A DNA stretch of 64,000 nt from Eutreptiella sp. 'Long Island Sound 2002' (Eukaryota > Euglenozoa > Euglenophyceae > Eutreptiales > Eutreptiaceae), in assembly GCA_964036045.1 (NCBI GenBank), contig OZ038385.1, forward strand, positions 57,445,919-57,509,918. The letters are read 5' to 3'. The first letter of the stretch is position 1, and each line of letters starts with the position of its first letter. Shown one piece after another: positions 17,208 through 62,082 of the stretch. Position numbers and translations under genes: made by a program. The notes under the pieces were generated by a model, which saw only the letters and a program-made list of their open reading frames with translations, was not told the origin of the DNA and did not search any database.

Positions 17208-20135
17208 ATGCAGGTCTTTCGTTCCCAGTTTAAGAGTGCGTCGTCTAAGGCCCCAGACCAAGGAGCATCGGGCTCTGGGGCGGACGCGTCGGTGCAGGAC
17301 ACCAGCCAGATGTCGCCTGAGGAGCTGCGCGCGTTGCTGCAGTCCCAGCAAGAGGCGATCGGACATCTACAAGCACGGTTGGAGAGCCTGGCCGTCGCGG
17401 AGAGAAATACGGTGCCGGACTTGACCGCAGAGGCAGTGGAGCAGATGCTGGGGGGCGACAAAGTGGCCAGCTGGATGCGCCAGTCAGGCGAGGCGCTGCG
17501 GGACTACGTTAGAAGCGCAAGTGCTGCACCGGTCAGGCCATCCGACGTGATGGGCAATGCGATGGAATGCCCGAGGGGCGACAGGCTGGCCTACAGGATT
17601 TGGGGTATCATCCTCGACTCCCAGCAGGCGTACGCCCAGAGGTTCGCGTCGGAATCCAGCAGTCGGGCGGACCCGTCCAACCCGCTGGATGCAATGAGCT
17701 GGCCAGATGCGGTCAAAAACGGGGGACCGTCCTTTAAGTATAAGGGCATCGACTTCGCGATGCGACAAGGCGTCCTTCATTGGATGACAAAGAAAGGAAG
17801 GTGGGTACCAATATCAGCCCGCCCGTCTGGTGACTGCCAGAGATGCGCAAAAGAGGGCGTCCCATCGGAGCAGTTGAGGCACTGGCATTTCTAGTGTCCC
17901 CACTGGTCCTGACGGGACTGTCGCCACTGCGACAGGGCGGGGTGGGGATGGCCGTGTTGGTGTGAAGATTCCAAACCCGCGCGTCCAATCCCCACCCGGG
18001 AGGCCTTACCTGCTGCCAGAGCGACCTTCAGCGCGGCGGCGGCGGGGTGGGCAATGGCGATGGCGGCCGTTGGATCATTTAGGGTGGCGGCCGTGGGCGT
18101 TCGGGGCTGGGCCCCAAAAACGCAAGCCAGATACCGTTCCGCCCTGTCCGCGGTGGCGAAGTATGAGGGAACCAGGGCTTTGCGGACGCCGCTTACTGAC
18201 ACGCTGTCTGACTTCTTGGCGTCAAGGGTCTTTATGGGGCAGGCTAGATCCACCCTCAGGGGTTATGTGTCCGCAACTCGGGCGGCAGAAGATATCAGGC
18301 TGCTCCCGGTCTGTGTTCAGGCCATCCACTGGAGACTTGCAAAGTTTGGAAAGCCGACACCAGGGCAGCCATACCTGGGACCAGAGGGTCTCTTCCTCCT
18401 GTGGGCCAGAGCGGCCTCGCCGGTTGAGCAAGCAGTGGCAGCGTTGGCGAGCCTCAGTTGGCTTCTCTTCTTGCGAGTCTCTGAAGCGGTGTCCATCACG
18501 CCAGCGGGACTGGAAAGCGATTCCGTGGTCCTGTTCGTCACTACCAAAGTTGGCGGCCACAGGGAGGTGCGGCGCCCACTTTATGAGTGGGGACGCTCGT
18601 GGGTCCGATTCCTTAGATCCTACGCCGCGGCAAGCTGCATCCCGGAGGGTCAACCGTTGGTTAGGGGAGGGGTTGAGGCAGTGGAGAAGATCTTCGCAGA
18701 CCTCCTCCGTGATTCCCCGTATAGTGGCCATCGGTGGCATTCCCTGCGGCGGGGGGGCGCTGCGGCCGCCTTCCACCGCTCTCCAAATGTGGCCTATTTC
18801 GTTTGGTGGGGGAGGTGGAAGCGGCTGGCCACGGCGTTGGAGTATGCTCTGGGCTACTCTGACCCTGCGGTGGTTGGGGCTTTGGTGCTTCCATGGCCTG
18901 TTGGTGGCCAGGCTCCTGGTGAGCGTTTGGCTGTGCTGCTGGCCGACCTGTGGGGTGACCCCATGTATGCTAATCCCGAAAGGAAGTCCCCGAAGGCGTC
19001 GCTGGAGATCGCTGCCCCAGTGCCTGCGGGGCCTGTGGTATCTCTTCCTGATATAGATGTGGCGCCGCATCAGGGGGAAGTGGACGACGTGGGGTCTGAT
19101 TCGGATTCTTCGTCCGTCCCCTCAGAGTCTTCGGCCTCCGCCGTGTCCACAGCAAGTGCCTGTGGCTCCCCCGCGAAGCCCACACCGCCCGATGGTCCGG
19201 GGGAACGCCCCCCACAATTCACGCCGGGAACCGGACCTCAGGTCGTGAACGGCAAGAGGAGGCTGCGATCTAAGGGAACGGGCAAGACACCGAGAGGTGG
19301 CGCAGCAGAGGTCGACGGCGATGGTAAACCGAGGCCCAAGCGGCGAGTCATTGGTCTGGGCGGTTCCTTATCTGTCCAGCGGCATCATGCGGCGAGCGCG
19401 AAGGTGGGCCTGGGTAATGCAAAAGCCAGACGACCTGCCTCCAAGAGGAGGCATCCTGATGGGCCTCCAGTCGGGCCTGCCAGCAAAGTGGCTGTGCGTT
19501 CCCCACAGGAGAGTCAGGGCCAGGGCGGCAGTGCAGCGACAGGCAAGCGCGGGGGGGGGTCGCCTGGAAATTCGCCCCCCGTGGGAGCGATTCGCGAAAC
19601 CCCATCTGCCTGTGACGAACCTGTTGGTGGCCCAGTGCTGAGTTCAGCGCAGGGATCACTGCAGATTATCACATTGGCGGATGGGGGGCCCCGCCCTCTG
19701 ACCAGGGCAGACCTGTTGTATGTACGTTCGGAACCAGTTCCGTTATTTGTCCGGTTTTTGCAAGCCTTCTTTACCTTTTTGCCGTGGCTTCACCAGGCAC
19801 TATCTTGCGGGGTTCTGTTACTCATGAAACGACTCCATTTGTTTGTGCTTCGCTTGTTTGTGACGTGTGAGGACTACCGTTTGCGGTCAGCGCCGGATAT
19901 AACTTTTAACGCACTGTCAGAATTTACCGCTGAGTCTTGGCAGGCTCTTTTGCATTTGTCTACGTCGCCGGTGCCGCAGGTGGGCAGGGTGGACCCACAG
20001 CTGGTGGAGAGGGGTTTGGGGGCGGTGGGTAACTACACAATTTCCGATGATCTGTGGTGTGAGTTGGCCCCCCCTGGTTTTGAGGCGCCTGTGTCTGATT
20101 TTCACTTGGAGAGAGAAAGTCACTCGACTAATAGG
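17208..20135 (+). CDS. family A gag-like region fused to tyrosine recombinase (5' part of polyprotein)
   Basis: Starts at ATG 17208. Codons 1-228 are gag-like with a predicted coiled coil (EELRALLQSQQEAIGHLQAR). A Cys/His-rich stretch follows (CQRC..HWHF..CPHW..CRHC..CWC). It is crossed by in-frame TAG (17892) and TGA (17910), and the frame then stays open to the transposon junction. The YR domain has all expected residues: Arg codon 423 (FLRVSEAVS), Lys 447 (TTKVGG), H-x-x-R 511-514 (HSLR), a tryptophan pair (WWGRW) and Tyr 546 (ALEY). A 300-codon basic, Ser/Pro-rich linker leads to the RT. An unbroken ORF can also start at ATG 18054. YR presumably integrates circular or extrachromosomal cDNA. 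Confidence 0.75.
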
Positions 20136-20160
20136 CTTAGGCGGCTCTATACGCACGTAG
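20136..20160 (+). repeat. left terminal inverted repeat of the 6.5 kb transposon
   Basis: 25 bp identical to the reverse complement of 26633-26657. Homology stops abruptly inside (ACTTCG against CAAAAT). Preceded by ATAGG. Confidence 0.9.
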
Positions 20161-20432
20161 ACTTCGTTGCTAAAAGGCACGATTCATGGCGATTTCAACA
20201 TCCGTTTTTTGCACCTAAAAAAAGCATATCATTTTTTCGGCCAACCCCACGTGGATTTTCATCGTGGGATACAACAACCTTGCCTTTTGTTGCTTCCAGA
20301 GGTGTACGTATACACCCCCTATTCCGGGCTGAAAATTGTATCATTTAAAATTTTTGGGCACTGCAGTGCCCAAAATTTTGAAATGGCTTTTTTCAGTGGG
20401 TTCTCCAGTACACCTCTGTAGTCATCTCCACA

Positions 20433-20590
20433 GGTGATGTCATACTGCAGCAGCATGCATCAAACCTTGGCATACCCGTTATCCATGGGTCATCGCACCG
20501 CGGTGTTATACTCGGAAGGCCACGTACAATGTACCTTGCCCAATCAATTCCATTCCCGTCCAAATGTGCACTTGAAAATGGACTTCCAGT
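20433..20590 (+). other. possible 5' exon of the first transposon gene
   Basis: After an acceptor-like ACAG at 20430-20433 the frame is open and protein-like (GDVILQQHASNLGIPVIHGS, then HRGVILGRP). It ends near the palindrome centred at 20604. No family was recognised, and the link to the ORF at 20914 is not shown. Confidence 0.3.
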
Positions 20591-20913
20591 ACTTTTGGGC
20601 ACTGCAGTGTCCAAAAAATTGAAAACTCCGTATTTCACTCCTATTGGTTCCCATTGCGTAACACCTGACAAAGGACGTATGAATCATCGGACGTTGGTAC
20701 TCATCCTCTGCTCATTGGAAATATATTGCCGGTTGTCTGACTGCCACCTTGGAGTGTACCCAGGCTTTGGAACGTCCCACGTCCATTGGGGGATACATTG
20801 TTTGGATCTTCGCTAGCTGCTTCTGGTCTATGCCGCATCAGGTTTGTTTTGTGATGGTGCCTCTGTTTTCTTTGTCCCCTTACCTTTGCTGCCTGCGAAC
20901 AGGACTTTTGTCC

Positions 20914-23219
20914 ATGGATGCGGCTCCCTTCCGGCAGTTCCTTAGTTCGAAGGTATATGCTTCAAAGGAGGATCTATCCGAGGCTGTGGGTGTGGATAAG
21001 GGTGCCGATGCGTTTTGTACGTGGGTGTTAGATCTCCGGTTGGAGTGGAGAAGTAGGCGGTCTGTTGGTGAATACATCCAACAAAGGGACAGACGGACCG
21101 TTAATTGTCTGCCGGACCAATGGTTCCGTGTTGCTGAGCAAGAGATTTTTAATATATGGTCTGTTCTACACAAGAGGTGTCGTCCACGTGCCAAGAGGGC
21201 TGTAGGTGTTCAACCCAAGAGTCGTGTGCAACGTAGGTGTTTGGCTCACATGGGTCAATGTTCTTACAATGTACCCTCCTTTGCAGTTCAAGGAGCAACT
21301 GCGTGCACCAGTCTTTGGCAGACCTTGGAAGGTAAACCCGCTGTTCTATGGTTTGATAATTTTTATAGACGTAACTTCCGGCCTGTGCCTGGTAATGAGA
21401 ACCGGCCCCTTAATTGTACAGCTGGTGCTATCATACTCTTGAAACGACCTGTCGACATTATGCCGTCTTTTCCTAGCCTCTCGGTCTTGCGGCAGAGGAT
21501 TGGGTACACTGCAGACTTGTTGGTGCAGAGCCATAAAAACTTCATTGATGGCTTGCAAGGGTTGATGGACGACCCCATCCGCCTTCAACATGTTCGTTGT
21601 CCCTTGGACATACGACGGGATAATGTTACCAGCCCAGCTTGGACCCCCTTTTTTCTCACAGACCTAACTGTGTCCGCTACCCCCGACCTTGTCTCTATTA
21701 TTCACGGGCTCCAGGAGGTGCAGCAGCACACACAGCACCGTCTTCCATTGTTGGTCGACGAAAATATTCACTACCGTGTCCTTAAGCTCGTTTACAGCAT
21801 CAGCTATGCTCGGTACAACGTGCCCCTGTTCATTACACGTACCCCGGTAGTGTACGGCACATGGCACCCATATAAATATTGTGTAACCCTGTGCTACAGA
21901 AGATTCTTCCCTTTATTTACCTATTTTTCCTATGGTTCACTCAATTTGGGCACTGCAGTGCCCAACTTTCCGAAACTCATCTATATGGAGCGTATGATTC
22001 TGGTGCTCTTGCACTTGGCCCATAAGTGGCGCCAACCTTTGGAACAGAAGTTACAGACTCTAAGGGGTTTGCACCGACCGGGTAACGCTAATACAGCACA
22101 CTTCTTACACAGGTGCAAGGGTTGGTAACACTGCTGTATGGTTACATTCCAGCCTTGTTTATTATTGGGTCGCAAGTGAGGGATTGTCATTGGTCTGCAC
22201 AAGGAGAGCAGCACGCTGCAGGGCCATTGTTGAGCCGTTGTCTACACGTCCTTCTGAGGCTCACCCTAGGTTATGAGGACAAGGTTGAATATGTGCGCAC
22301 CATTGTTGTTGCTAGGCTGTTGTGGTCCCAGTGGTTTGCTCGCTTACCTGGGGTGGCACACAGTGAGGAACCGTGTGAGGCCCTGTTAAGCCGTGTTGTG
22401 CACTTAATGGCACAACACCCTGGGAACTGTACGTTGCAACAGGTGCATGACCTGTTTATACTCACTCCCGTTGCAGACCAGACCCCAAAGGACCTGCAGT
22501 ACGTTAATGTTCCCAAGGGACTGCCACAACTGGTTGATCGTCGTTTCACCAGATTGATGGCGCGATTCGATGTTGGTGTTATACCCCCCCTGGTCTGGTC
22601 CAGTCAGAAGTCGAGTGTCGTGCAAGACAGGTGGGATCCTGCCAAGATGGATTTTCCTTGCGCCCTAGATACGGTGCTCACTGCAGAGCATTACCGAGAT
22701 CTATGTGCCAAGACATTGCAGACACTTGTTAAACCTGTTAAAGTTGATGTTGATGTGATGACAGAGCTGGGTAGACACGTGCCACAGCGTCCTCCAGGTG
22801 ATATGGACACAACAGTAGCACAGGCACAGGACATGTTACGCGCATGTAATACACCAGACCGGTACAAGCGACGCCGGCCAGCACGCGCTTTTGCGCAAAG
22901 GGAACCCGCCCGGATACCCGCCCCCCCCAATGCTGATGGCGACAGTGACAGTGATGAGGACCCCCCCCCCCCTGCTGGTGGGGCAGCCGGAGATCCAGAC
23001 CTGAGGGCTGCTGATTTTGTGGGTGATGATGGATGGGACCCAGACCCCCCCCCTCCAGAAGCAGTGTCTGTTCACAGTGATGATTCCGACGCCCCCGTGG
23101 CTGTCCTTTCGGAGCTGAATGAGTTTGACCCTCGATTTTTACCAGGTGCATCCGACTGTGATGCTATTTCTGCCATCTGTGTTCAATCGTCGAGCGCTGC
23201 CAGTAGTCATCAACATTAG
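20914..23219 (+). CDS. transposon gene 1, candidate transposase (two adjoining ORFs)
   Basis: ORF one (ATG 20914 to 22128) and ORF two (22113-23219) are in different frames and are probably joined by an intron ending CACAG at 22112; GT 22003 is in phase, giving a 110-nt intron. A further in-frame intron 21206-21286 is possible. Motifs include AVLWFDNF, LLVDENIHYRVLKL, YGTWHPYKYC and FPKLIYMER. The C-terminus is acidic and proline-rich (GDSDSDEDPPPP). The Asp in LWFDNF and the later conserved-looking block recall RNase H-fold transposases, but I cannot prove family membership. As the largest gene of a TIR element it is the best transposase candidate. A palindrome is read in frame at 21946-21965 as LGTAVPN. 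Confidence 0.5.
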
Positions 23220-23300
23220 AAGCCTGTAAATCAACAATTTGAACCCTCGTGGCCTTTTGTAGTGTGTCGTGTGACCCTTTGTTAGCCCCTTTGCTAAGCT

Positions 23301-25976
23301 ATGCCTTCGGATACCAAACTGCCGGAAGGGGATGAGCAGCAGACCGCATCGCAAGCCGTTCACACAGCAGAGAAGACACGGGCGCAGTCGGGGCAGGCTC
23401 CAGTGAAGCGGACGGGGACCGACCGGGCAACGGAAACATTCCGGACAACGTGGATCAAAAAGGAGCTGGTCAAGATACAGCTGACCAAGATAAAGTTTGA
23501 CACCGACCTCACGCGTGGGCAGACCAGAGAGAGGGACGAGGACTCAGTACTATCGCGGATCGCAAGCCTGAGGACAAATCCACCCTGCCGGCCTATCTCA
23601 AACATTCTCATATGGCGAAACGAAGGTACACTACCATCCTGTCACACACGCGTCGTAATTTTCACACAGTCTGGTCGTTTGGGCACTGCAGTGCCCATCT
23701 CGCTGATATCCCCCATCTACCATCTCCCTGTGGTGCATTTTTCTATCAGCTGAAATTCCCTACTGCTTGGGCGGGGCTCATATCCTGACGGCACTCCAAA
23801 GACTTCACCGAGAATACTGTGAGAAGTCACGGGCACTGCCGGACTGGTTACAACACGTCTACTGCGAGGAGATCAGACACGACTGTCCTGTTGACATCAG
23901 AGAGATTATTGGAGGCGATCACAATGCGGTACAACACTCAGTGAGCAAGCTGAGTATGGGACAAGTGGCCGCTCGAATTTGGACCGAAGTGCAGAAGGGC
24001 AAAGCGAAAGAGATGCTGCTGGTGGCTCTGCGGAAGTGTGGCCGGCTGGGCGAGAAAACCTCTGTGGTATGAGAGATGCACGATGAGACCACCGTTGTCA
24101 GTCCTTTGCGTACCTGTGGCCTGTCCAACACTGTATCCCTGCCAGGACTCAATCTGGAAAAATTGGAGACCGCTGGTCTCATTACTGCAGATATCTGGTG
24201 GCCGCGTGGCTGAGTTTATTGACACCTTTGAGAAGACTGCCGGTGAAGGTATTATGTCCTCTGAGCACCTGTTTTCGTCGTCTTTTGGTGTTCATGGGAA
24301 CTGCAGTGCCCAAATTCGATGCGACCCTAATTTTTGCACTGCAGTGCTCAACCCATACACTCTGCGGCCGTTGACGGGACTGCATGGCGACCAGATGGAT
24401 GAAATACTGCTGTACATGGCTGGAGATGGGGCCAAGATCGCAGGACTACATGCCAAGGCCAGACTGTTGAAGCGGGACCGCCTGTGGGAGATGCTGTACC
24501 TTCACCCGGACAACACGCTCATCCATCCTTCTCGACGTATGTTTATGGGGCGGCTAGGTCTGGCGCGATCGCTGTTGACCCCCCCCCCCCCCGAACCCAC
24601 GACGTAAGGCTGTTTCGATCCCAGTGGTACCAGTGGTCTCCTGTTCTAACAGTGAACGTGCATGAAATGCAAAGAGTCCGCAAACTGCTTGCAAAGTCGC
24701 CGAGGGCCGCCAAATTGTCACTGGGGAAATGGACCTGGAGTGCCGAAAATCCCTTACCAAGCTGGGACACCATCCAGAAAGCACCGCTGTGGCAGGATGA
24801 GGAATGGGCTGACCTGAGGATTGCGCTGGCGAGGCCTGTCAAGGAAACTGCAGTGACAACGACTGATGGGGAGAAATCAACAACTATCTGGCTCAACAAG
24901 CCGCAGGATGGGACTGAAGCAACCGGAGCTCGAGCAGAGGCAATTGCGTTGGTTCTTGGCAAGGCCATCCCGTATACGATTGCATTGAGGGAGTACAAAG
25001 CGGTATGCAACCATTAGGCATAAGAAACGGATCGATTTCGCATTGCTGGTCACTTTAGGCACTGCAGTGCCCATCTGTAATGAAATGTGCTTTTGACAAC
25101 AGGTCTTCATTGAGTGTACGAAGGAACAAATGGACGATATCCATCCCCTGGTGCTGAAGGTTGCTGCGAAGTTGGTACCTGTGGCTATTGGTGGAATGGC
25201 GGCCGATGTTAAGTTCCTGGTTAATCAATTGCGCGACTCTGAGGAGTGTGGAGGCTGGCAGTATATTATGACCTCTTTTTTTTGATCAGGCAGTCGGTCA
25301 CCCGACCTATCGGTTCGAGGAGAGGACTATTTGCTTCTGTGTCCCCGACAAGTTTAGGGTGAAGGTCCCGAATATTTTCATTTGCGATCAGGGTGCATAC
25401 GGCAGCACCATTGGTCTGGCAGCGGCTGGTTGGCTCCTGCGTGTGCTTGGTATTGTTCCCCGACGCGACAGACAGTCCGAGGATGAAGTCTGGCTCCTGC
25501 TTTTGACAGCATCGGCTGTATTGCCAGCACAGCTCCCGTCCTGCCTTCCTGAGTCCCCCTGTCTGGCAGCTTGCTTCACTGGGCGCCAGGGTTTGTTTAA
25601 CGAATTCTGTGAACAGCTAGCGGCGTATGTGCAGGAGATGGACTGTGTCTACTTGGTTAACTGGGACGCTTGGATGCCAAGGATTAGGGACTGTATGCCA
25701 GTTGTGGTGCAGCGGCCTGGGGAAGGGGAAGATGAGGAGGGGGGGGACGATGTGGAGGAAGAGGAGGATGACGAGATCGTGCTGGTCGGAGGTGGTGACA
25801 GCAAGAAGAGGAGCACCCCCAGCAAGAAGAAGCCGTCCTCCGACGACAGTGGGGATGAGGTTGATGATCCCCCCAAAAGGCCAGCCAAAAAGGCCAAGGA
25901 CAGTACCCCCCTCAATATGTTTCACGCCAAAGTAGGTCAGGCCAAGGGTAAGAAGGCTCCACCAAAGAAGAAGTAG
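23301..25976 (+). CDS. transposon gene 2, multi-exon, unknown function
   Basis: Exon 1 starts at 23301 (CCTTCG..; ATG MPSDTKLPEG) and ends at 23625. Intron 1 is 23626-23749 (GT..AG) and restores frame into EIPYCLGGAHILTALQRLH. Further exons include about 24182-24240, about 24360-24537 (MDEILLYMAGDGAKIAGLHA), about 24634-25002 and 25103 to about 25219. The last exon is 25290-25976. Intron 25003-25102 is in phase zero (EYKA then VFIECTKEQ). The C-terminus is acidic, then strongly basic (KKRSTPSKKKPSS ... KKAPPKKK), suggesting nuclear or DNA binding. No known domain was recognised. The stop is TAG at 25974-25976. Introns 1 and 25003-25102 each carry the palindrome near their midpoints. Confidence 0.5.
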
Positions 25977-26632
25977 ACTGCGTTGTGCGGTTGGCACTGC
26001 CTGTGACCATGTCAGTAGTTTTTTCGCCTCGATTTGCACACTGTCGCGCATCCTGTTCTATGCAGGTGTGAGACTGGTGCCCTTTTTCATGTTTTGGTAA
26101 TTTTGGGCGCTGCAGTGCCCAAACTCAGCGACTCGCCCTTTTTTTACCCCTGCTGGGCCATTTCTTTTGCAGGCATTGTTGTTGTCATTTATTATTGGAT
26201 TGCCTGCACTGGCGGCGCCTCCGTTGTTGGTCGGCACCACTGGTGGTGCATCATTCTTGACGCTTCGCATACAATCACAGTGACTGGGTCAGCAGACGCG
26301 GTAACAAAAAGCAAACCAGACTTTTGCATGTGTTTGCCTGTCGTCCTCCTTGCTTCATTTTTTAGGTTGCATTTTACGGCATGGTTTGAAATGCAGCAGC
26401 GGATGATTTGGAAGAATTGGATTTTTCTTTGGATGGACACTGCAGTGCCCAAATTTGAAGGGGATACATGACTTTTGACTGGCACATGTTGTACCCCCTA
26501 CACACAGTCATTTTGGATAATTCACAGGTTTTTTGGGGGTGTTCTCTGCAAAGCACAATTGTGCAATTTTTCAAAGTGGTTTTTTAGCCCCCGTTTTGGG
26601 GTGGTACCCATTTGGGAACTGTGGCAATTTTG

Positions 26633-26657
26633 CTACGTGCGTATAGAGCCGCCTAAG
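26633..26657 (-). repeat. right terminal inverted repeat of the 6.5 kb transposon
   Basis: Exact reverse complement of 20136-20160. Followed by ATAGG (26658-26662), the second copy of the target duplication. Confidence 0.9.
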
Positions 26658-26662
26658 ATAGG

Positions 26663-28112
26663 GAGGCTTTGGTGCGGCCCATGGTTAAATGGTTGTTGCG
26701 TGAGGAAATAGTTACCATTATGGATGAAAGTTGCCCCTTGAGGGCGACCTGCTGGCCATTTGTGATCCCGAAGTCCACAGAGAAAGTGTCCCTTATCTTT
26801 AATCTCGTTGAATTCAATGAGAGCTTGCATAAGCCGCTGTCTTTCTCGCTGGATGGTTGGGAGCAAATCTCCAAGAAATTGGCGGATTGGCCGGCCGATA
26901 GGCCGTTGTTTTGTACACACGTGGATCTTAAAAACGCTTTTTGGAGTTTTAAGTTACCAAGACGGCACGAGAGGGCCTTTCGGTTCCGGATGCGTTGGGA
27001 AGGTGTGGAGAGAGTGTTTTGTATGTCGCGGATGCCGTTTGGTTGGAAACATTCCCCGTTGTTCTGTCAGACGGCGTTGGGAAGGATAGTGCGACCCTTG
27101 ATCCCGGAGGGATACACCCTCTTCCATTATTTAGATGATTTTTTGATTTTGGGGCCGGATCCAGCGCGTTTGCGTGTTGTGACTGCTCGCGTGGTCAGGG
27201 CGCTAGAGGAGGCTGGTTTTATTGTGTCGGGGAAGAGTACGTTGGAGCCGGTTACGGACATATTTTTCCTAGGGAAGTACATCAATTTAGGAGTGCGCAC
27301 GATCCGTTCACATCCACGGGCCTTCCTCCAGATGTTCAACATTTGGCTCAGGCTGGCCACGAGGTCCAGACCTTCTTCCCGGTTACTCTCCAAGGCACTG
27401 GGCTTCATCCATTGGCACTTTAGACCCCGTCTGGGGGGGGGGGCCACTGCTCGCGGGGAGCTATTGTTGTGATCGGTGGGGGGGGTTTGAGAGACCCACG
27501 CCACTGAAGGTGCTGCATGGACTGTGTACCGCGATCGTCCGTTGTATGGAAACTTGGGAACCTCCGGCACCGGCACGCCTTGCTGTGTTTCATGCATTGT
27601 CTGCTACGCCCGATTTGTGGGCTGTTCGCCACTGTGTGATGTTTGGGGATGCTGCTTTGGATACCATTCGATATAGGGGAGGGGCATTCATCCCGCGATT
27701 GTCAGGTGTCCGTTCCCAGGTGATTCCCCCTGCACGTCACACACAACAGAGCGCTGAGCTTTGGGTCTTGGTGTGGTTGGTGAGGTTGGCGGTCAGGTTG
27801 GGGTGGAATTATGTTGTGCTGGTCACGGACTCTCAGGTATCCGCGTGCCAGTTGGTGGCCCTGCGGGCATCCACGTGGCTGTCAAGGCAGCAGAGGCTAC
27901 TGAGGGCCCTGGTTCTGAGGTTGCTGCAGTCTGGTTTGATTGTGGAGGTCCGGCTGGTACCGGGCGTGTTACAGCCGGCTGACCCGCCGAGTAGGTTGGA
28001 TTCCAATTTCCAGTCTAATGTGCAGCGGGCGTGTATCCGTGCATTTCAACTCTGGCGGGTGTTGCTGAAGCACCCCCGCGAGGTGGTGTCGGTGGGAGGG
28101 TTGGTCTTGTGA
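26663..28112 (+). CDS. family A reverse transcriptase-RNase H (3' part of polyprotein)
   Basis: Starts directly after the transposon's target duplication. RT motifs in order: PLRATCWPFVIPK, THVDLKNAFW (catalytic Asp at 26924), MPFGWKHSP, HYLDDFLILG (YLDD at 27128-27139), GFIVSGKSTLEP and FLGKYI. The frame ends early at 27472 because of a G11 run at 27433-27443; with ten Gs it would continue into the RNase H frame. RNase H shows FGDAALD, QQSAELW, VTDSQVSACQ and QPADPPSR, i.e. the D-E-D pattern and the usual end motif, and stops at 28110-28112. It copies element RNA to DNA and removes the RNA strand. Confidence 0.8.
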
Positions 28113-31178: not shown

Positions 31179-34100
31179 ATGCCCCCACTGCAGCAGGACG
31201 TTCCAAAGGAAGAGAATGTGTACGAGAGCACTAGATCCCTCCATGAGTATCTCATGATGCATTTTGGCACCAAGACTGATCTGATTGAGCCCGAGTTCGA
31301 GCAATATGCCCCGCTTTCTGCCCTTGATTTCCCCAAGCGATGTGCAGAGGAGTGCTGGGCTGTGGCAAGCGACCCTGCCAGTGCAGGCCTTGGGGGCAGT
31401 AAGGCCCGCGTTTTGGATGCTGGGTGCGCTGTGGGGCGCTCAACGTTTGAGCTTGCACGCTTCTTTGAGGATTGTGTAGGTGTGGACCCAGAGGGGAATG
31501 AGGAGGAGCAAGAGTGGCAGGGGTCAGGGTTCAGAGGGTCCAGGGCAACTTCTGTTACCTTCTACCTTTTTGCTGTAATTAATCTAGGTGTTTGAATGTC
31601 TGCAACCTGATAGGAGCTTAACCCCCCCCTGACCTGTGATACATCCTAGGAGCAGGGATGGTTGAGATTCTTGAATGCTCCTTGCTGGTGCTCCCGCAAG
31701 GAATATTGGGCAGCCATATTTTCCCTTGGGTTCCATGCCGTCCAGGATGTGGTATGCCCTCCGCCCAAATTCCTTAATCACCAAATGGCAGGTGAAGTTT
31801 GCTGTGTAGCCTGTGCCTCCCTACATGATTCTTTTTATGTTTTGTTCATGGTTTTTGGACAACAATAAAGATTCTGATTTTGACTCCAATACTGACACTG
31901 TTTGGGCAAGATTGCCTGTGGAGTTTTTGGTTTTGGGTGCCAGTGGCCCGCCGGATTTAACCGTACCTGGGTTCGGCTGACCTATCGGCTCGGCGTACTT
32001 ATCGGCTCGGCGGACCTTCGGCCGGCCGAAAGTCCGGCCGTACCTTCGGCCAGTACGGTTTAATCCGTCACCCCCCCTTGTACTATTACCCCCAAATACT
32101 AACAACCCCCCCCCCCCCTATTATTACTAACAAGACTCAGCTGTACACATAGAAGGCGGTGCACACACAAGGCGGAACGCACAAAAGGCGGTCTGTGGCC
32201 ACCGCAGGAGTCATGTTATTGAAGGGGCCACAGGCAAGGCGGTACACACAGAAGGCGGTGCACACACAAGGCGGAACACACAAAAGGCGGTCTGTGGCCA
32301 CCGCAGGAGTCATGTTATTGAAGGGGCCACAGGCAAGGCGGTACACACAGAAGGCGGTGCACACACAAGGCGGAACACACAAAAGGCGGTCTGTGGCCAC
32401 CGCAGGAGTCATGTTATTGAAGGGGCCACAGGCAAGGCGGTACACACAGAAGGCGATGCACACAAAAGGCGGAACACACAAAAGGCGGTCTGTGGCCACC
32501 GCAGGAGTCATGTTATTGAAGGGGCCACAGGCAAGGCGGTGCACACACAAGGCGGAACACACAAAAGGCGGTCTGTGGCCACCGCAGGAGTCATGTTATT
32601 GAAGGGGCCACAGGCAAGGCGGTACACACAGAAGGCGATGCACACAAAAGGCGGTCTGTGGCCACCGCAGGAGTCATGTTATTGAAGGGGCCACAGGCAA
32701 GGCGGTGCACACACAAGGCGGAACGCACAAAAGGCGGTCTGTGGCCACCGCAGGAGTCATGTTACTGAAGGGGCCACAGGCAAGGCGGTACACACAGAAG
32801 GCGGTGCACACACAAGGCGGAACACACAAAAGGCGGTCTGTGGCCACCGCAGGAGTCATGTTATTGAAGGGACCACAGGCAAGGCGGTACACACAGAAGG
32901 CGGTGCACACACAAGGCGGAACACACAAAAGGCGGTCTGTGGCCACCGCAGGAGTCATGTTATTGAAGGGGCCACAGGCAAGGCGGTACACACAGAAGGC
33001 GGTGCACACACAAGGCGGAACACACAAAAGGCGGTCTGTGGCCACCGCAGGAGTCATGTTATTGAAGGGGCCACAGGCAAGGCGGTACACACAGAAGGCG
33101 GTGCACACAAAAGGCGGAACACACAAAAGGCGGTCTGTGGCCACCGCAGGAGTCATGTTATTGAAGGGGCCACAGGCAAGGCGGTACACACACAAGGCGG
33201 TGCACACACAAGGCGGGACACACAAAAGGTGGTCTGTGGCCACCGCAGGCGTCTTGTTATTAATATACAGAGGGGGGGGTTGTTAGTATATCGGGGTATT
33301 ACTACAAGGGGGGGTGACGGATTAAACCGTACCTTCGGCCGGCCGACTCGGCCGGCCGAAGGTACGGCCGTACTTTCGGCCGGCCGAAGGTATGGCCGGA
33401 CTTTCGGCCGGCCGAGCCGGCTGGCCAAAGGTACGGCCGTACCTTCGGCCGGCCGAAGGTCCGGCCGGACTTCCGGCCATTTTTTCGGCCAAAACAAGGG
33501 GGGGGTGACGGATTAAACCGTACTTTCGGCCGGCCGATCGGCCGGCTGAAAGTACGCCGAGCCGATAGGTAGGCCGAACCCCAGGTACGGTTTAATCCGG
33601 TGAGCTGGTGCCAGTCTTGGAGGCAGGTTGTATTTTGCTCAAGGACATAAGAGTTTTAGAGCCCATGGACCAGTGAACCATTTCATTGGCCCTGGAGCCC
33701 AGGGCATGCAGTTCTGATGAAATGCTTTCTTGGCCTGCATTTATGGTCGTTGTTTTCCATGTTTACCAAAGTTTTCATGTACTGTGATGGTACTGTCCCC
33801 CTAGGAGGGGGCGGGGGGCAGGGCCAGGAGTGGGGACAACAGTATGTGGGTGGGTGGGTTGGGGGGTGGGTTGGAAGTTGATTCATGAAAAGGTTTCCCT
33901 GTCTGCTCGCAAGCAAAGTATACCATTTGGGCAAGGGCTGTTGTGGCAGAGAGCTTGCTTCCGCCCTCCCTACTTGCGGAGGCTTGAGGGAGAGCAGGGC
34001 ACATTTTCTGGAGGAAGGATGTGAACCGAAGTCGATTGATGGTTGTTCAGGATGTGAGCTTGATAAACCCTAGCACGCCATGTACGACCCCCCAGTACAA

Positions 34101-42634: not shown

Positions 42635-43315
42635 GTAGATGGACTTGCCTTCTATTTCGTTTTGCCCTCCTGCACGCCTTTACCTCTCATTTTCTCACTT
42701 CTTCTTGCAGGATGTCATGTCTTGTGGCAAGTGGGGCTAAGCCAACAAATTGCTTGCTCCTGGCGCCCTAGAACCAGGTTTTCAATGTATAAGGGGAATT
42801 TTGCTGCCATGGAAATGCCACGGAAAAATCACGGAAAATCATGGAAACGTTTTTGGACCAAAATCACGAAAAGGCGAGAAACCTTGCTCCCCAGAATGCA
42901 GGCCCTGAGACGGTAGGGGTTGTGCAGCCACTTTGATTCCTCCCAGCTTTGAGGACCTGCGATGGCGGGGTTATGTGACCACTTTAATTCCTCCTCGCTC
43001 TGGGGCTTGAGACAGTGACCGAACAGCGTCACACATCGACTTGAGGGCAAGGCAAATTTGACCCTTCCACGGCCCTCGAGGGTACGTCTCTAGGGTTTTG
43101 GAAGAATACCCCTGCCATCGTGGGGCACCCTGATCAAAGAGTGGAGAAATCAAAATGGTTACACGACCCCTGCCATCTCAAGGCCCCCAAAGCAGTCAGA
43201 AACCAAACCAGGGGCAAGGCCCTTGCCATCTCAGCACTTTCCCCCCCAACCCCCCAATTATAGCCCCGAACAGTGAAAACCCCCTCAAAACCTGTGTTTT
43301 CAAGTTTGGTCCGGT

Positions 43316-43377
43316 TAATCATGTCATCCACGGGGGGGACGTCTCCTCGGTTCTGGTACGCGACTCCCCCCCCCCCC
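43316..43377 (+). repeat. half of a fold-back element (family also at 48906 and 53444)
   Basis: Sequence ACGTCTCCTCGGTTCTGGTA then CGCGACT and a C-run is shared with 53451-53485. The right half is missing; LINE copy 1 is inserted in the C-run. Confidence 0.6.
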
Positions 43378-43389
43378 CCCCCTCCCTGC

Positions 43390-45220
43390 AGTGGCACTCT
43401 GTGTATTTCCGAAATGAGTTCCGCTGCTCCTACTACAACACGAAATTGATCCGGCAGGGGGTGCTGACGTGGGGTCAATTCCAGAGCTTGGAGGACGCAA
43501 GATTGTTCAATGCACTGCCTCGGACATGGAAAGGGGTCTACAATCATGGCGGACGACTCCTCAACAAAGTCATGTCACAAGGGGGGTTTGATACCCCCGC
43601 AGTCCATACCCAAAACTGGACCAGGGCATGGCTGCTCCAGTTCTACGCCTCTCAGCCAGGGGTCCGCGACCCGCAAACACCGGAGGTATGGGAACAGCTG
43701 GCACAGGCACAGCTACCACCGAGGGCTCAAGACTTTGCGCGAAAGGCGCTGTGGCACAAACTGACCGTACATGCAAGAGTCTACAAGAGGTCAGGCACTG
43801 ACAAGTGCCCGGTTTGCTCACAAAAGGAGACGATCAAACACGCGATGGTCGAATGCCCCATGTTCAAAGCAGCAGCGGCGGTTATACAGCACTACTATGG
43901 CCAGGTGACAACTGATAACGGGACATCCACAGTTCGAGATATGATGGAGTCCGACGACCAAGAATGGTTGCTGAAAACGAACCAAGGCTGGGCGATGTGG
44001 TCAGCAAGAAGTGCCCATTGGTGATATCGATGCGAAGTCAAGGCAGGAGCGTCGCCAGTGTTCACGTCATACCTTACAACATGGCTAAGGGAGCTATGTG
44101 AGTGGGTGGGATTTTACACAGGGGAGCACAGGGAACAATGGAAAGGATTTCAAAAATCACTGGAACAACTTCGAGACACCGGAGTGCAGCCACGACAAGG
44201 GGAAGTGCAAGTACATGGGGGACTGAATGCGTGGTGGCAAACACACACGGAATGCTTCACCCAAGAAAAATCAGCCGACAATCACAGTTGGCAAAGGGCA
44301 ACGGAGCCACGCCCGAAGCGCCCGAGGCAGGCAGGCCCGGGAGTGCTACAAGGAGTGCAAGAACTGATTGCAGAATTGGTGGAGAAGGGCTACAGGATAG
44401 TGTACACTGATGGATCGTCGAAGCGACTGGGCCACAAGGACATGCGCAGGGCCGGGGGATTTGGCGTGTTCGCGGCGGAAGACGACCAAGGACCAGAGGT
44501 GCGCTTCTGTGGCTACGTACCAACACATTACAGGCAAACAAACAACGGAGCAGAGCTTTGGGCAGCTGTAGAAGCCTTGCAGGGTTTCTGGGTGCCAAAA
44601 CTGGCAATCCTCACCGACTCGCAGTACCTGCAGCTGGGAGCGACTGGCAGGGCCCAACACTGGAAGTCAAAGGGATGGACAACCACATCTGGAAAACTGC
44701 AAGTCCACGTCCCAGTCTGGGAAATGCTGCTCCAGGAAATGGCGACGCCGGGAAGAGAAGTCAGGTGGGAACATGTCCCAGCACATGTCAACGTGCAGGG
44801 AAATGAGATGGCGAATGGATTGGCCATGGAAGGCATGTGTTCAAGCCCACTGTGGTCACAGCATGTTGCGCCAAAATCATCATCTTGGTCAGAGTCCACG
44901 GTAGGTTTGAGGGGAGGGTCGGGATCAGAGTCAGAGGGCACAAGGGCACTCTGGTCATCCCTGGGTATGGTACCCATGGACAGTGATGAACTGACAGGGG
45001 AAGCATCCGGGGAGCCAGAGCGCCACGTGGGATGGGACCGTACTCCTCAAGCAATACAGAAAGTGAGGAAATGAGACCAGGACACACACACCAGGGAGTG
45101 CTGTCGAGTGCACTGTCAGCAGCAGACACATTGTCCTTCAGCACTGATGTGAGTGACACCAGGCGACAGCGCAAGAAGCGAAGGCTCAGGAAACGCAGGA
45201 ACCCAGGGCAGGGTCGATAA
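43390..45220 (+). pseudogene. LINE ORF2 C-terminus: zinc finger and RNase H, copy 1
   Basis: Same protein as copy 2: HSVYFRNEFRCSYYN, zinc-finger CPVCSQKETIKHAMVECP, RNase H motifs YTDGSSK, NNGAELWAA, LTDSQYL and VPAHVNVQGNEMANG. Broken by TGA at 44022-44024 (CGA in copy 2) and by a 2-base insertion near 45021. The correct frame ends in a basic tail (RRQRKKRRLRKRR) at TAA 45218-45220. Confidence 0.8.
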
Positions 45221-59693: not shown

Positions 59694-59748
59694 CTAGCAG
59701 CAAGGGTTGGACTTTCGACCTAAACGCCCCCCCCCCCCCCCGTGCTTT

Positions 59749-62082
59749 CGTCGCGCTAGGGTGGTATCCACGCTGCAACTGTCAATGAACGAACGTGCAT
59801 TCATGCTGACATCATGGATTCTACCGGTCGTGGCATGGGTATCCAAGGCATATTACGCCCCAGTCTCGGTGATCAGACAACTGAAGTTGGTGTATCACGT
59901 GTCTATGGGTACCAACAGCTGGGGAATCACCTTACCAATCCTCTCACGACCAAGAACGCAAGGGGGACTGGCACTACCAGAACCAGAACTGTTTCTTATG
60001 CACCAGGCGGCGGCTCCGTTCGTCAGCCTGTTGGGAGAGCCTCACAAATTCCCTGACAAGGCAGTGGAGACCTTCTATGCATGGGCAACAGCCATAGGGT
60101 TCACACCATCCAAGGACAACCTTCCATATATTCAACTGGGCATGGTCCGAACGGCAGATCTCACATTTTTGGGATGGTCAGCGAAGGCACACTCCAACAT
60201 TCAGCGAGTGGCCCCGCAGGTGGCCCCCCCGACAAACCGGGACCGCCTGCCGTTGTGGCACTCGGTGTATTTCCGAAATGAGTTCCGCTGCTCCTACTAC
60301 AACACGAAATTGATCCGGCAGGGGGTGCTGACGTGGGGTCAATTCCAAGCATTGGAGGACGCAAGACTGTTCAATGCACTGCCTCGGACATGGAAAGGGG
60401 TCTACAATCATGGCGGACGACTCCTCAACAAAGTCCCGTCAAAAGGGGGGTATGATACCCCCGCAGTCCACATGCAAAACTGGACCAGGGCATGGCTGCT
60501 CCAGTTCTACGCCTCTCAGCCAGGGGTCCGCGACCCGCAAACGCCGGAGGTATGGGAACAGTTTGCACAGGCACAGCTACCACCGAGGGCTCAAGACTTT
60601 GCGTGCAAGGCATTGTGGCACAAACTGACCGTACATGCAAGAGTCTACAAGAGGTCAGGCACTGACAAGTGCCCGGTTTGCTCACAAAAGGAGACGGTTA
60701 AACATGCGATGGTCGAATGCCCCATGTTCAAAGCAGCAGCGGCGGTGATACAGCATTACTATGGCCAGGTGACAACTGACAACGGGACATCCACAGTTCG
60801 AGATATGATGGAGTCCGACGACCAAGAATGGTTGCTGCAAACGAACCAAGGCTGGGCGATGTGGTCAGCAAGAAGTGCCCATTGGCGATATCGATGCGAA
60901 GTCAAGGCAGGAGCGTCGCCAGTGTTCACGTCATACCTTACAACATGGCTAAGGGAGCTATGTGAGTGGGTGGGATTCTACACAGGGGAGCGCAGGGAAC
61001 AATGGAAAGGCTTTCAAAAGTCACTGGAGCAACTTCGAGACACCGGGGTGCAGCCGCGACAAGGGGAAGTGCAAGTACATGGGGGACTGCATGCGTGGTG
61101 GCAAACACACACGGAGTGCTTCACCCAAGAAAAACCAGCCGACAACCATAGTTGGCAAAGGGCAACAGAACCACGTCCGAAGCGCCCGAGGCAGGCAGGC
61201 CCGGGAGTGCTACAAGGAGTGCAAGAACTGATTGCAGAATTGGTGGAGAAGGGCTACAGGATAGTGTACACTGATGGGTCGTCGAAGCGACTGAGCCACA
61301 AGGACATGCGCAGGGCCGGGGGATTTGGCGTGTTCGCGGCGGAAGACGACCAAGGACCAGAGGTGCGCTTCTGTGGCTACGTACCAACACATTACAGGCA
61401 AACAAACAACGGGGCAGAGCTTTGGGCAGCCGTGGAAGCCTTACAGGGATTCTGGGTGCCAAAACTGGCAATCCTCACCGACTCGCAGTACCTGCAGTTG
61501 GGAGCGACTGGCAGGGCCCAACACTGGAAGTCAAAGGGATGGACAACCTCATCTGGAAAACTGCAAGTCCACGTCCCAGTCTGGGAAATCTTGCTCCGGG
61601 AAATGGCGACGCCGGGACGAGAAGTCAGGTGGGAACATGTCCCAGCACATGTCAACGTGCAGGGAAATGAAATGGCGAATGGATTGGCCATGGAGGGCAT
61701 GTGTTCCAGCCCACTATGGTCACAGCGTGCTGCACCAACATCATCATCGGGGTCAGGCTCTACGGTAGGTTTGAGGGGAGGGTCGGGGTCAGAGTCAGAG
61801 GGCACAAGGGCACTCTGGTCTTCCTTGGGTATGGTACCCATGGACAGTGATGAACTGACAGGGGAAGCATCCGGGGAGCCAGCGCCACGTGAGATGGGAC
61901 CGTACTCCTCAAGCAGTACAGAAAGTGAGGAAATGAGGACAGGGCACACAAACCAGGGAGTGCTGTCGAGTGCGCTGTCAGCAGCAGACACACTGTCCTT
62001 CAGCACTGATGTGAGTGACACCAGGCGACAACGCAAGAAGCGAAGGCTCAGGAAGCGCAGGAACTCAGGACAGGGTCGATAG
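59749..62082 (+). CDS. LINE ORF2 C-terminal part: RT thumb, zinc finger, RNase H
   Basis: Open to TAG 62080-62082 (778 codons), 5'-truncated by the insertion. The N-terminal part looks like the post-RT region of LINE proteins (FMLTSWILPVVAWVSKAYYA, LSRPRTQGGLALPEPELFLM). The zinc finger is CPVCSQKETVKHAMVECP. RNase H1 motifs: YTDGSSK (Asp), NNGAELW (Glu), LTDSQYL (Asp), AHVNVQGNEMANG, where the usual fourth Asp is Asn. A Ser/Gly/Glu-rich linker and a basic tail (RRQRKKRRLRKRR) follow. It is a truncated LINE, not expected to move by itself. Confidence 0.85.
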   Translation, partial: RRARVVSTLQLSMNERAFMLTSWILPVVAWVSKAYYAPVSVIRQLKLVYHVSMGTNSWGITLPILSRPRTQGGLALPEPELFLMHQAAAPFVSLLGEPHKFPDKAVETFYAWATAIGFTPSKDNLPYIQLGMVRTADLTFLGWSAKAHSNIQRVAPQVAPPTNRDRLPLWHSVYFRNEFRCSYYNTKLIRQGVLTWGQFQALEDARLFNALPRTWKGVYNHGGRLLNKVPSKGGYDTPAVHMQNWTRAWLLQFYASQPGVRDPQTPEVWEQFAQAQLPPRAQDFACKALWHKLTVHARVYKRSGTDKCPVCSQKETVKHAMVECPMFKAAAAVIQHYYGQVTTDNGTSTVRDMMESDDQEWLLQTNQGWAMWSARSAHWRYRCEVKAGASPVFTSYLTTWLRELCEWVGFYTGERREQWKGFQKSLEQLRDTGVQPRQGEVQVHGGLHAWWQTHTECFTQEKPADNHSWQRATEPRPKRPRQAGPGVLQGVQELIAELVEKGYRIVYTDGSSKRLSHKDMRRAGGFGVFAAEDDQGPEVRFCGYVPTHYRQTNNGAELWAAVEALQGFWVPKLAILTDSQYLQLGATGRAQHWKSKGWTTSSGKLQVHVPVWEILLREMATPGREVRWEHVPAHVNVQGNEMANGLAMEGMCSSPLWSQRAAPTSSSGSGSTVGLRGGSGSESEGTRALWSSLGMVPMDSDELTGEASGEPAPREMGPYSSSSTESEEMRTGHTNQGVLSSALSAADTLSFSTDVSDTRRQRKKRRLRKRRNSGQGR

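Follow-up and report, generated by a model that had tools for sequence, protein, structure and literature searches.

As far as the available portions of the cited papers go, eukaryotic DNA transposons are sorted in Repbase into 23 superfamilies, 21 of which have a DDD/E transposase, and P, hAT, MuDR, Kolobok and Dada have a C/DxxH motif in common, which in hAT stands between the second D and the E (PMC10045372). In P this motif is placed right after strand 5 of an RNase H fold that holds an insertion domain between strand 5 and the last helix (PMC8230255). The CACTA-Transib clade shows C(2)C and H(3-4)H between the second D and the E and mostly CA..TG ends, target site duplications of hAT are usually 8 bp long but 5-7 bp in some lineages (an hAT5 exists), and the KDZ families (Kyakuja, Dileera and Zisupton) make duplications of 7-8 bp (PMC12730594). 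Here we describe an element of 6,522 bp in a 64,000-nucleotide stretch of DNA (the window) from Eutreptiella sp. 'Long Island Sound 2002', located at C8:57445919-57509918 of an assembly of 2.28 Gb and 2205 contigs, which is the genome searched throughout. With the roles given below to its gene 1, its gene 2 and a repeated palindrome, we consider it very probable that this element belongs to the class II DNA transposons and is moved in a cut-and-paste manner by a DDE transposase. Its transposase, by predicted fold and by the sequence signatures compared, appears to belong to no described superfamily.

Insertion into a retroelement

The element interrupts a retroelement polyprotein, and the features of the junction are as follows.

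17913..20135, plus strand: 5' part of the retroelement polyprotein, tyrosine-recombinase-like (sub-threshold Pfam match only, 0.041)
20131..20135, no strand: target site duplication ATAGG, left copy, 5 bp
20136..26657, no strand: whole transposon insert, 6,522 bp (from the sequence, inverted ends and empty sites)
20136..20160, plus strand: terminal inverted repeat (TIR), left, 25 bp
26633..26657, minus strand: TIR, right, 25 bp
26658..26662, no strand: target site duplication ATAGG, right copy, 5 bp
26663..28109, plus strand: 3' part of the retroelement, reverse transcriptase and then a frame with an RNase H-like match (Pfam)

The two ends are complementary at 25 of 25 positions, and even with as many as 3 mismatches allowed the 18-bp core of the end has just two sites in the window, both of them element ends (shuffles expect 0.02). 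The flanks joined by one ATAGG form a single open frame in which the recombinase-like part is continued by the reverse transcriptase (PF00078, 2.4e-16); the RNase H-like match downstream is sub-threshold (0.065). Uninterrupted copies of the retroelement occur in the same genome: a 120-nt junction probe gave 40 scored matches among 143 candidates, 95-98% identical over 117-120 nt. Six of these empty loci were aligned with 300 nt on each side, gapless in five (one of them over 599 nt) and with one gap in the sixth, and a single ATAGG stands at the junction in 6/6. Because the empty sites carry a single ATAGG, the insertion and its 5-bp duplication are established. The original prediction, made from the letters of the window alone, had claimed perfect 25-bp inverted ends, the ATAGG duplication, in-frame rejoining of the recombinase and reverse transcriptase parts and a precise insertion between them; ends, duplication and empty copies bear this out to the base, and the contiguous recombinase-reverse transcriptase copies that it proposed to look for are those 40 matches. 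That the retroelement might normally include the insert, or that the insert might be an artefact of assembly, is practically excluded by the same uninterrupted copies, and by hundreds of TIR ends elsewhere with 5-bp duplications at different targets.

In the interrupted retroelement, which has 40 scored copies in the genome, the recombinase-like region lies upstream of the reverse transcriptase, and the usual order in DIRS elements is the reverse.

Copy number, age and derivatives

The exact 20-bp end is found genome-wide at 185 + 185 sites on the two strands (reversed control 0) and the 25-bp form with two free positions at 339 + 350 = 689 sites. Among 100 exact-end places listed, 80 make up 40 convergent pairs no more than 15 kb apart, so the second TIR-bounded copy that the original prediction needed is found many times over; neighbouring listed ends in other orientations number none for ++ or -+ and one for --. 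Sixteen pairs span 3.40-3.42 kb and eleven 6.48-6.53 kb. In the 21 copies examined (the window copy and L009-L028) the 5-bp flanks are identical in 18 and agree at 4/5 positions in the remaining 3. These duplications lie at differing target sequences, with a preference that is at most weak (A/T at position 3 in 16/18 and G at position 4 in 10/18, the strand not being normalised). The termini are CTT..AAG in the 21 copies, which were selected by this end, and 4 variant-end copies start likewise. Across an alignment of 13 of the 15 long copies (L020 and L021, rearranged or deleted, being excluded) divergence from the column majority is 0.75-2.4%; the family is high-copy and rather young. TIRs at both ends of many copies and a duplication of fixed length are features of the TIR order of class II, and the RNase H-fold transposase with an acidic triad that also belongs to this class is here a prediction from structure models.

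Shortened forms accompany the long element. L028, of 833 bp, arose by internal deletion and is flanked by a 5-bp duplication of its own, and L023-L027 are 3.4-kb non-autonomous relatives that have in common with the long element just ~0.24 kb on the left and 0.6 kb on the right, at 84-94% identity. Two of these 3.4-kb copies were inspected, and both have a fold-back-like inverted-repeat centre without long shared open reading frames, rich in GACAGACAGA/GTCTGTCTGT runs and with palindromes of its own. In P0007 and L054 (C13:48227700-48233300) an internal deletion has fused gene 1 and gene 2 into one long open frame; the 674-residue frame at C13, tried as an intronless gene 2, was rejected as being this fusion. 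On viral contigs 21 stretches fit the search pattern, none of which encodes a relative, and no TIR was found there.

Gene 1, the predicted transposase

20914..23219, plus strand: gene 1, predicted DDE transposase, ~770 residues, frame-broken in the window copy

Gene 1 is 97% identical to P0001 (288 members) and 96% to P0002 (66 members). Since P0001 reads straight through, the window copy is frame-broken and its palindrome at 21945 is coding; the alternative of an intron at the frame change, with that palindrome inside it, was rejected on the same grounds. The first 674-700 residues are open in 5 of the 15 long copies, two of which (L017 and L021) are without the exact string sought at D282 or the Glu, and in none of 13 copies checked is the gene open to its end. 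Substitutions are in excess at the third codon position (51/51/90 and 79/45/94). Distant relatives without Pfam domains occur in other records at 29-54% identity (2722 candidates), and in the genome P0011 has 65 scored matches of 8155 candidates, 38-40% identical, with no internal stop in 43 of the 65, a best-scored and hence biased set. A profile search with gene 1 (7998 candidates scored) returned 54 hits, all at E ≤ 6e-15 and none with a Pfam domain.

The open reading frames of the element, gene 2 being taken as exon pieces, matched no Pfam model at E ≤ 1, and 22 gene 1 members matched no transposase model, with four stray weak matches (best E 0.084) in a test whose HMMER filters discard most matches above 0.1. 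The gene 1 profile had no match among PDB sequences, and Foldseek gave no significant hit with either of two gene 1 structure models, which have predicted local distance difference test scores of 77 and 81. In structural alignment with VIA-align, the best 33 of 50 rows for model 1 and the best 18 of 50 for model 2 are all DDE transposases or RAG1, after which Z drops to 4.0 and 3.2, respectively, and unrelated chains follow; no KDZ, CACTA or MuDR chains are among the rows listed, which excludes nothing. In an alignment of 22 gene 1 sequences, 5 of them near-identical to the first, and counting those with a letter at the position, D148 is present in 16/16, D282 in 20/21 and E485, E486 and E489 each in 11/13, and in the models these conserved acidic residues sit in the right secondary-structure elements. 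By predicted fold, gene 1 would thus be a DDE transposase with an RNase H-like domain. The original prediction had described two 'cargo' genes matching no family; the lack of a Pfam match at E ≤ 1 agrees with this, but 'cargo' is misleading because one of the two is, by that fold, the transposase.

Gene 2, a candidate accessory gene

23301..25976, plus strand: gene 2, ~758 residues, five exons, acidic and basic tail, frame-broken in the window copy
23626..23749, plus strand: intron 1, GT-AG, contains a palindrome
24067..24145, plus strand: intron 2, GT-AG, without a palindrome
24249..24344, plus strand: intron 3, GT-AG, contains a palindrome, its acceptor CAG inside the next palindrome
25003..25102, plus strand: intron 4, GT-AG, contains a palindrome

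Each site of the four GT-AG introns is kept in at least 11/13 copies. Gene 2 is open throughout in 0/13 copies, the first stop of the best copy falling at residue 640 of 758, and its changes favour the third codon position (130/131/216, p 2e-7 over the 13 copies), though not significantly in each exon. Genome matches number 161, with 150 of 2730 candidates scored; because those listed are all 87-99% identical, no diverged or host version of the gene is seen among them.

The coding signal of gene 2 and its retention in many copies could suggest that it encodes the transposase, with gene 1 as the accessory. We hold this to be very improbable, since gene 1 has the predicted DDE fold and the placed acidic residues and is the part for which distant relatives are known, and since the protein search with gene 2 (7998 candidates scored) found just the deletion fusion P0007 and no other relatives.

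A repeated 22-bp palindrome

20353..20374, no strand: palindrome copy 1 (TTTGGGCACTGCAGTGCCCAAA), starting 218 bp from the left end
20594..20615, no strand: palindrome copy 2
21945..21966, no strand: palindrome copy 3, within the gene 1 coding sequence, reads GTAVP
23678..23699, no strand: palindrome copy 4, gene 2 intron 1
24293..24314, no strand: palindrome copy 5, gene 2 intron 3
24331..24352, no strand: palindrome copy 6, degenerate, running across the end of gene 2 intron 3
25054..25075, no strand: palindrome copy 7, gene 2 intron 4
26102..26123, no strand: palindrome copy 8, 3' noncoding
26432..26453, no strand: palindrome copy 9, ~204-226 bp from the right end

Together with its near copies TTTGGGCACTGCAGTGCCCAAA occurs nine times in the element; a scan of the window tolerating up to 3 mismatches gives 10 hits, of which 9 are in the element (0.88 expected window-wide). 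The genome contains 373 exact copies, against 0 for the reversed control. Of the 34 exact palindromes on contig C1, 24 are no more than 7 kb away from an end (chance level 0.26%), and for 21 of these the distance is at most 260 bp; among the remaining 10, two are 4.2 kb and two ~7 kb away from one of the listed matches to gene 1 or gene 2. The seven noncoding copies change at 14/1988 positions against 432/20508 for the rest of the noncoding sequence (p 2e-6), in a test that did not include the degenerate copy, with 9/286, or the coding copy, with 0/286. Palindromes are kept in a non-autonomous derivative, and the 3.4-kb derivative also has some in the part that is absent from the long element. 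A dimer binding site is the simplest reading, and the nine copies are most likely dyad binding sites for a dimeric protein coded by the element, although a nucleic-acid hairpin or the site of a host factor is possible instead.

Six C1 palindromes lie more than 7 kb from found ends and listed gene matches (55936023, 56482783, 62906718, 64260020, 116039885 and 116040126), and for 55936023 and 62906718 the distance to an end is 8-9 kb. Another family as the source of palindromes that have no exact TIR nearby was considered and rejected, as 4 of 4 places examined proved to be the same family with variant ends. P0030, a gene 1 relative at 38% identity, also reads GTAVP at the position that the palindrome occupies in gene 1 of this element.

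Proposed mechanism

In the scheme that we favour, gene 1 would encode a transposase whose RNase H-like domain combines D148 and D282 with a Glu near the C terminus (one of E485, E486 and E489). This enzyme would recognise the 25-bp ends and excise the element, which would then be joined to target strands cut with a 5-bp stagger, the source of the 5-bp duplications. Gene 2 would encode a second protein, perhaps most plausibly an accessory DNA-binding factor, and the palindromes, of which one lies ~0.2 kb from each end, may be bound by an element-coded dimeric protein.

Other features of the window and assembly

A long interspersed nuclear element-like sequence is present in two copies with zf-RVT and RNase H (43134-45071 and 59698-62079), and 32011-33572 is an array of ~99-bp repeats with CGGCCGGCCGAAGG-rich palindromic repeats at its borders. 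COX1 is found on dozens of small contigs (C38 to C2191), mostly with identical scores, and fits the fragmented mitochondrial genome of Euglena. The COX1 translation from one small contig (L053) has by far its best match in PDB 8IUF (719 vs 433 bits), which is from Euglena gracilis according to the available part of the source (PMC10884005); by this one gene the host is probably a euglenid. COX1-like pieces also occur on the chromosome contig C3. On C42 there is a second COX1, distinct from the first and containing seven TGA codons, which points to another organism in the assembly; because of it, the small contigs can be assigned to the chromosomes only provisionally.

Comparison with described superfamilies

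For both gene 1 models the best structural matches, in the first two ranks, are the P element and Hermes, and the conserved His directly after strand 5 occupies the site of the C/DxxH His (PMC8230255, PMC10045372, in the parts available), so that the element could belong to the P or hAT branch as a highly diverged form, with nothing new at superfamily level. Several observations make this the less likely reading. The C/DxxH place reads G-x-W-H in the gene 1 family, with Gly in 19/20 sequences, Ala in 1/20 and His in 20/20, so the [C/D](2)H signature of P/THAP9 and of hAT is absent, and, with the HMMER filters mentioned above, neither a hAT model nor any other Pfam transposase model matched in the 22 members. 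The strand 5-last helix insertion domain of P is seen in the gene 1 models too but is common also to hAT and RAG1, and identity to the P element over the structural alignment is 8-9%. Duplications of the P superfamily are 8 bp long, whereas those here are exactly 5 bp in 18/21 copies, which also departs from the usual 8 bp of hAT but falls within the 5-7 bp of some hAT lineages.

The CMCT clade (CACTA, Mirage, Chapaev, Transib and Plavaka) is matched in its range of 2-5-bp duplications but not in its signature, since C(2)C is found in 1/11 and H(3-4)H in 6/11 readable gene 1 sequences, at differing places, nor in its ends, which are CTT..AAG here rather than CA..TG. The KDZ families resemble this element in being DNA transposons of eukaryotes and in frequently having several genes, but the 5-bp duplication differs from theirs of 7-8 bp and gene 1 lacks a Pfam match. 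Integrase-type transposases have a D-E spacing of ~35, whereas the spacing from the second D to the E is 200-213 residues in 10 of 11 readable sequences here and 274 in one (P0020, a false string match, being left out). This sets the element apart from Ginger2/TDD. Its duplication does match the 4-5 bp of Ginger2/TDD (PMC10045372, in the part available). The original prediction had placed the TIR and 5-bp duplication outside the common superfamilies; the tested signatures of P/hAT, CMCT and KDZ indeed fail, but 5 bp alone is not odd, because the CACTA-Transib clade makes 2-5 bp and hAT5 and Ginger2 also accommodate it. What is unusual is that the transposase sequence stands isolated and has an altered signature motif, that there is a second gene, and that a palindrome is repeated.

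By the GxWH, C(2)C/H(3-4)H and end comparisons, the transposase would work like the P/hAT/Transib type yet fails a tested signature of each; a distant kinship with P or hAT is conceivable, and by published signatures, Pfam and structure alignment it appears to fit no described superfamily. No description of the family is given in the available portions of the literature, including PMC12730594, PMC10045372, PMC8230255, PMC12455990, PMC10884005 and PMC6681497. The lineage is thus likely undescribed, a judgement made against published signatures and Pfam rather than Repbase, and the undescribed group suggested by the original prediction has found no other home but, for that same reason, falls short of proof. 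Tentatively, and with some reserve, we propose a new eukaryotic DDE superfamily, so far seen in one probable euglenid genome and other sequence records, with GxWH, 5-bp duplications, a second protein and a nine-fold 22-bp dyad that this second protein would bind in transposition or self-regulation. High copy number, youth and gene 1 frames without internal stops make the roles of the second gene and the palindrome directly testable, and a lineage with the P/hAT/Transib-type fold minus the distinguishing signatures would fill a gap between those groups.

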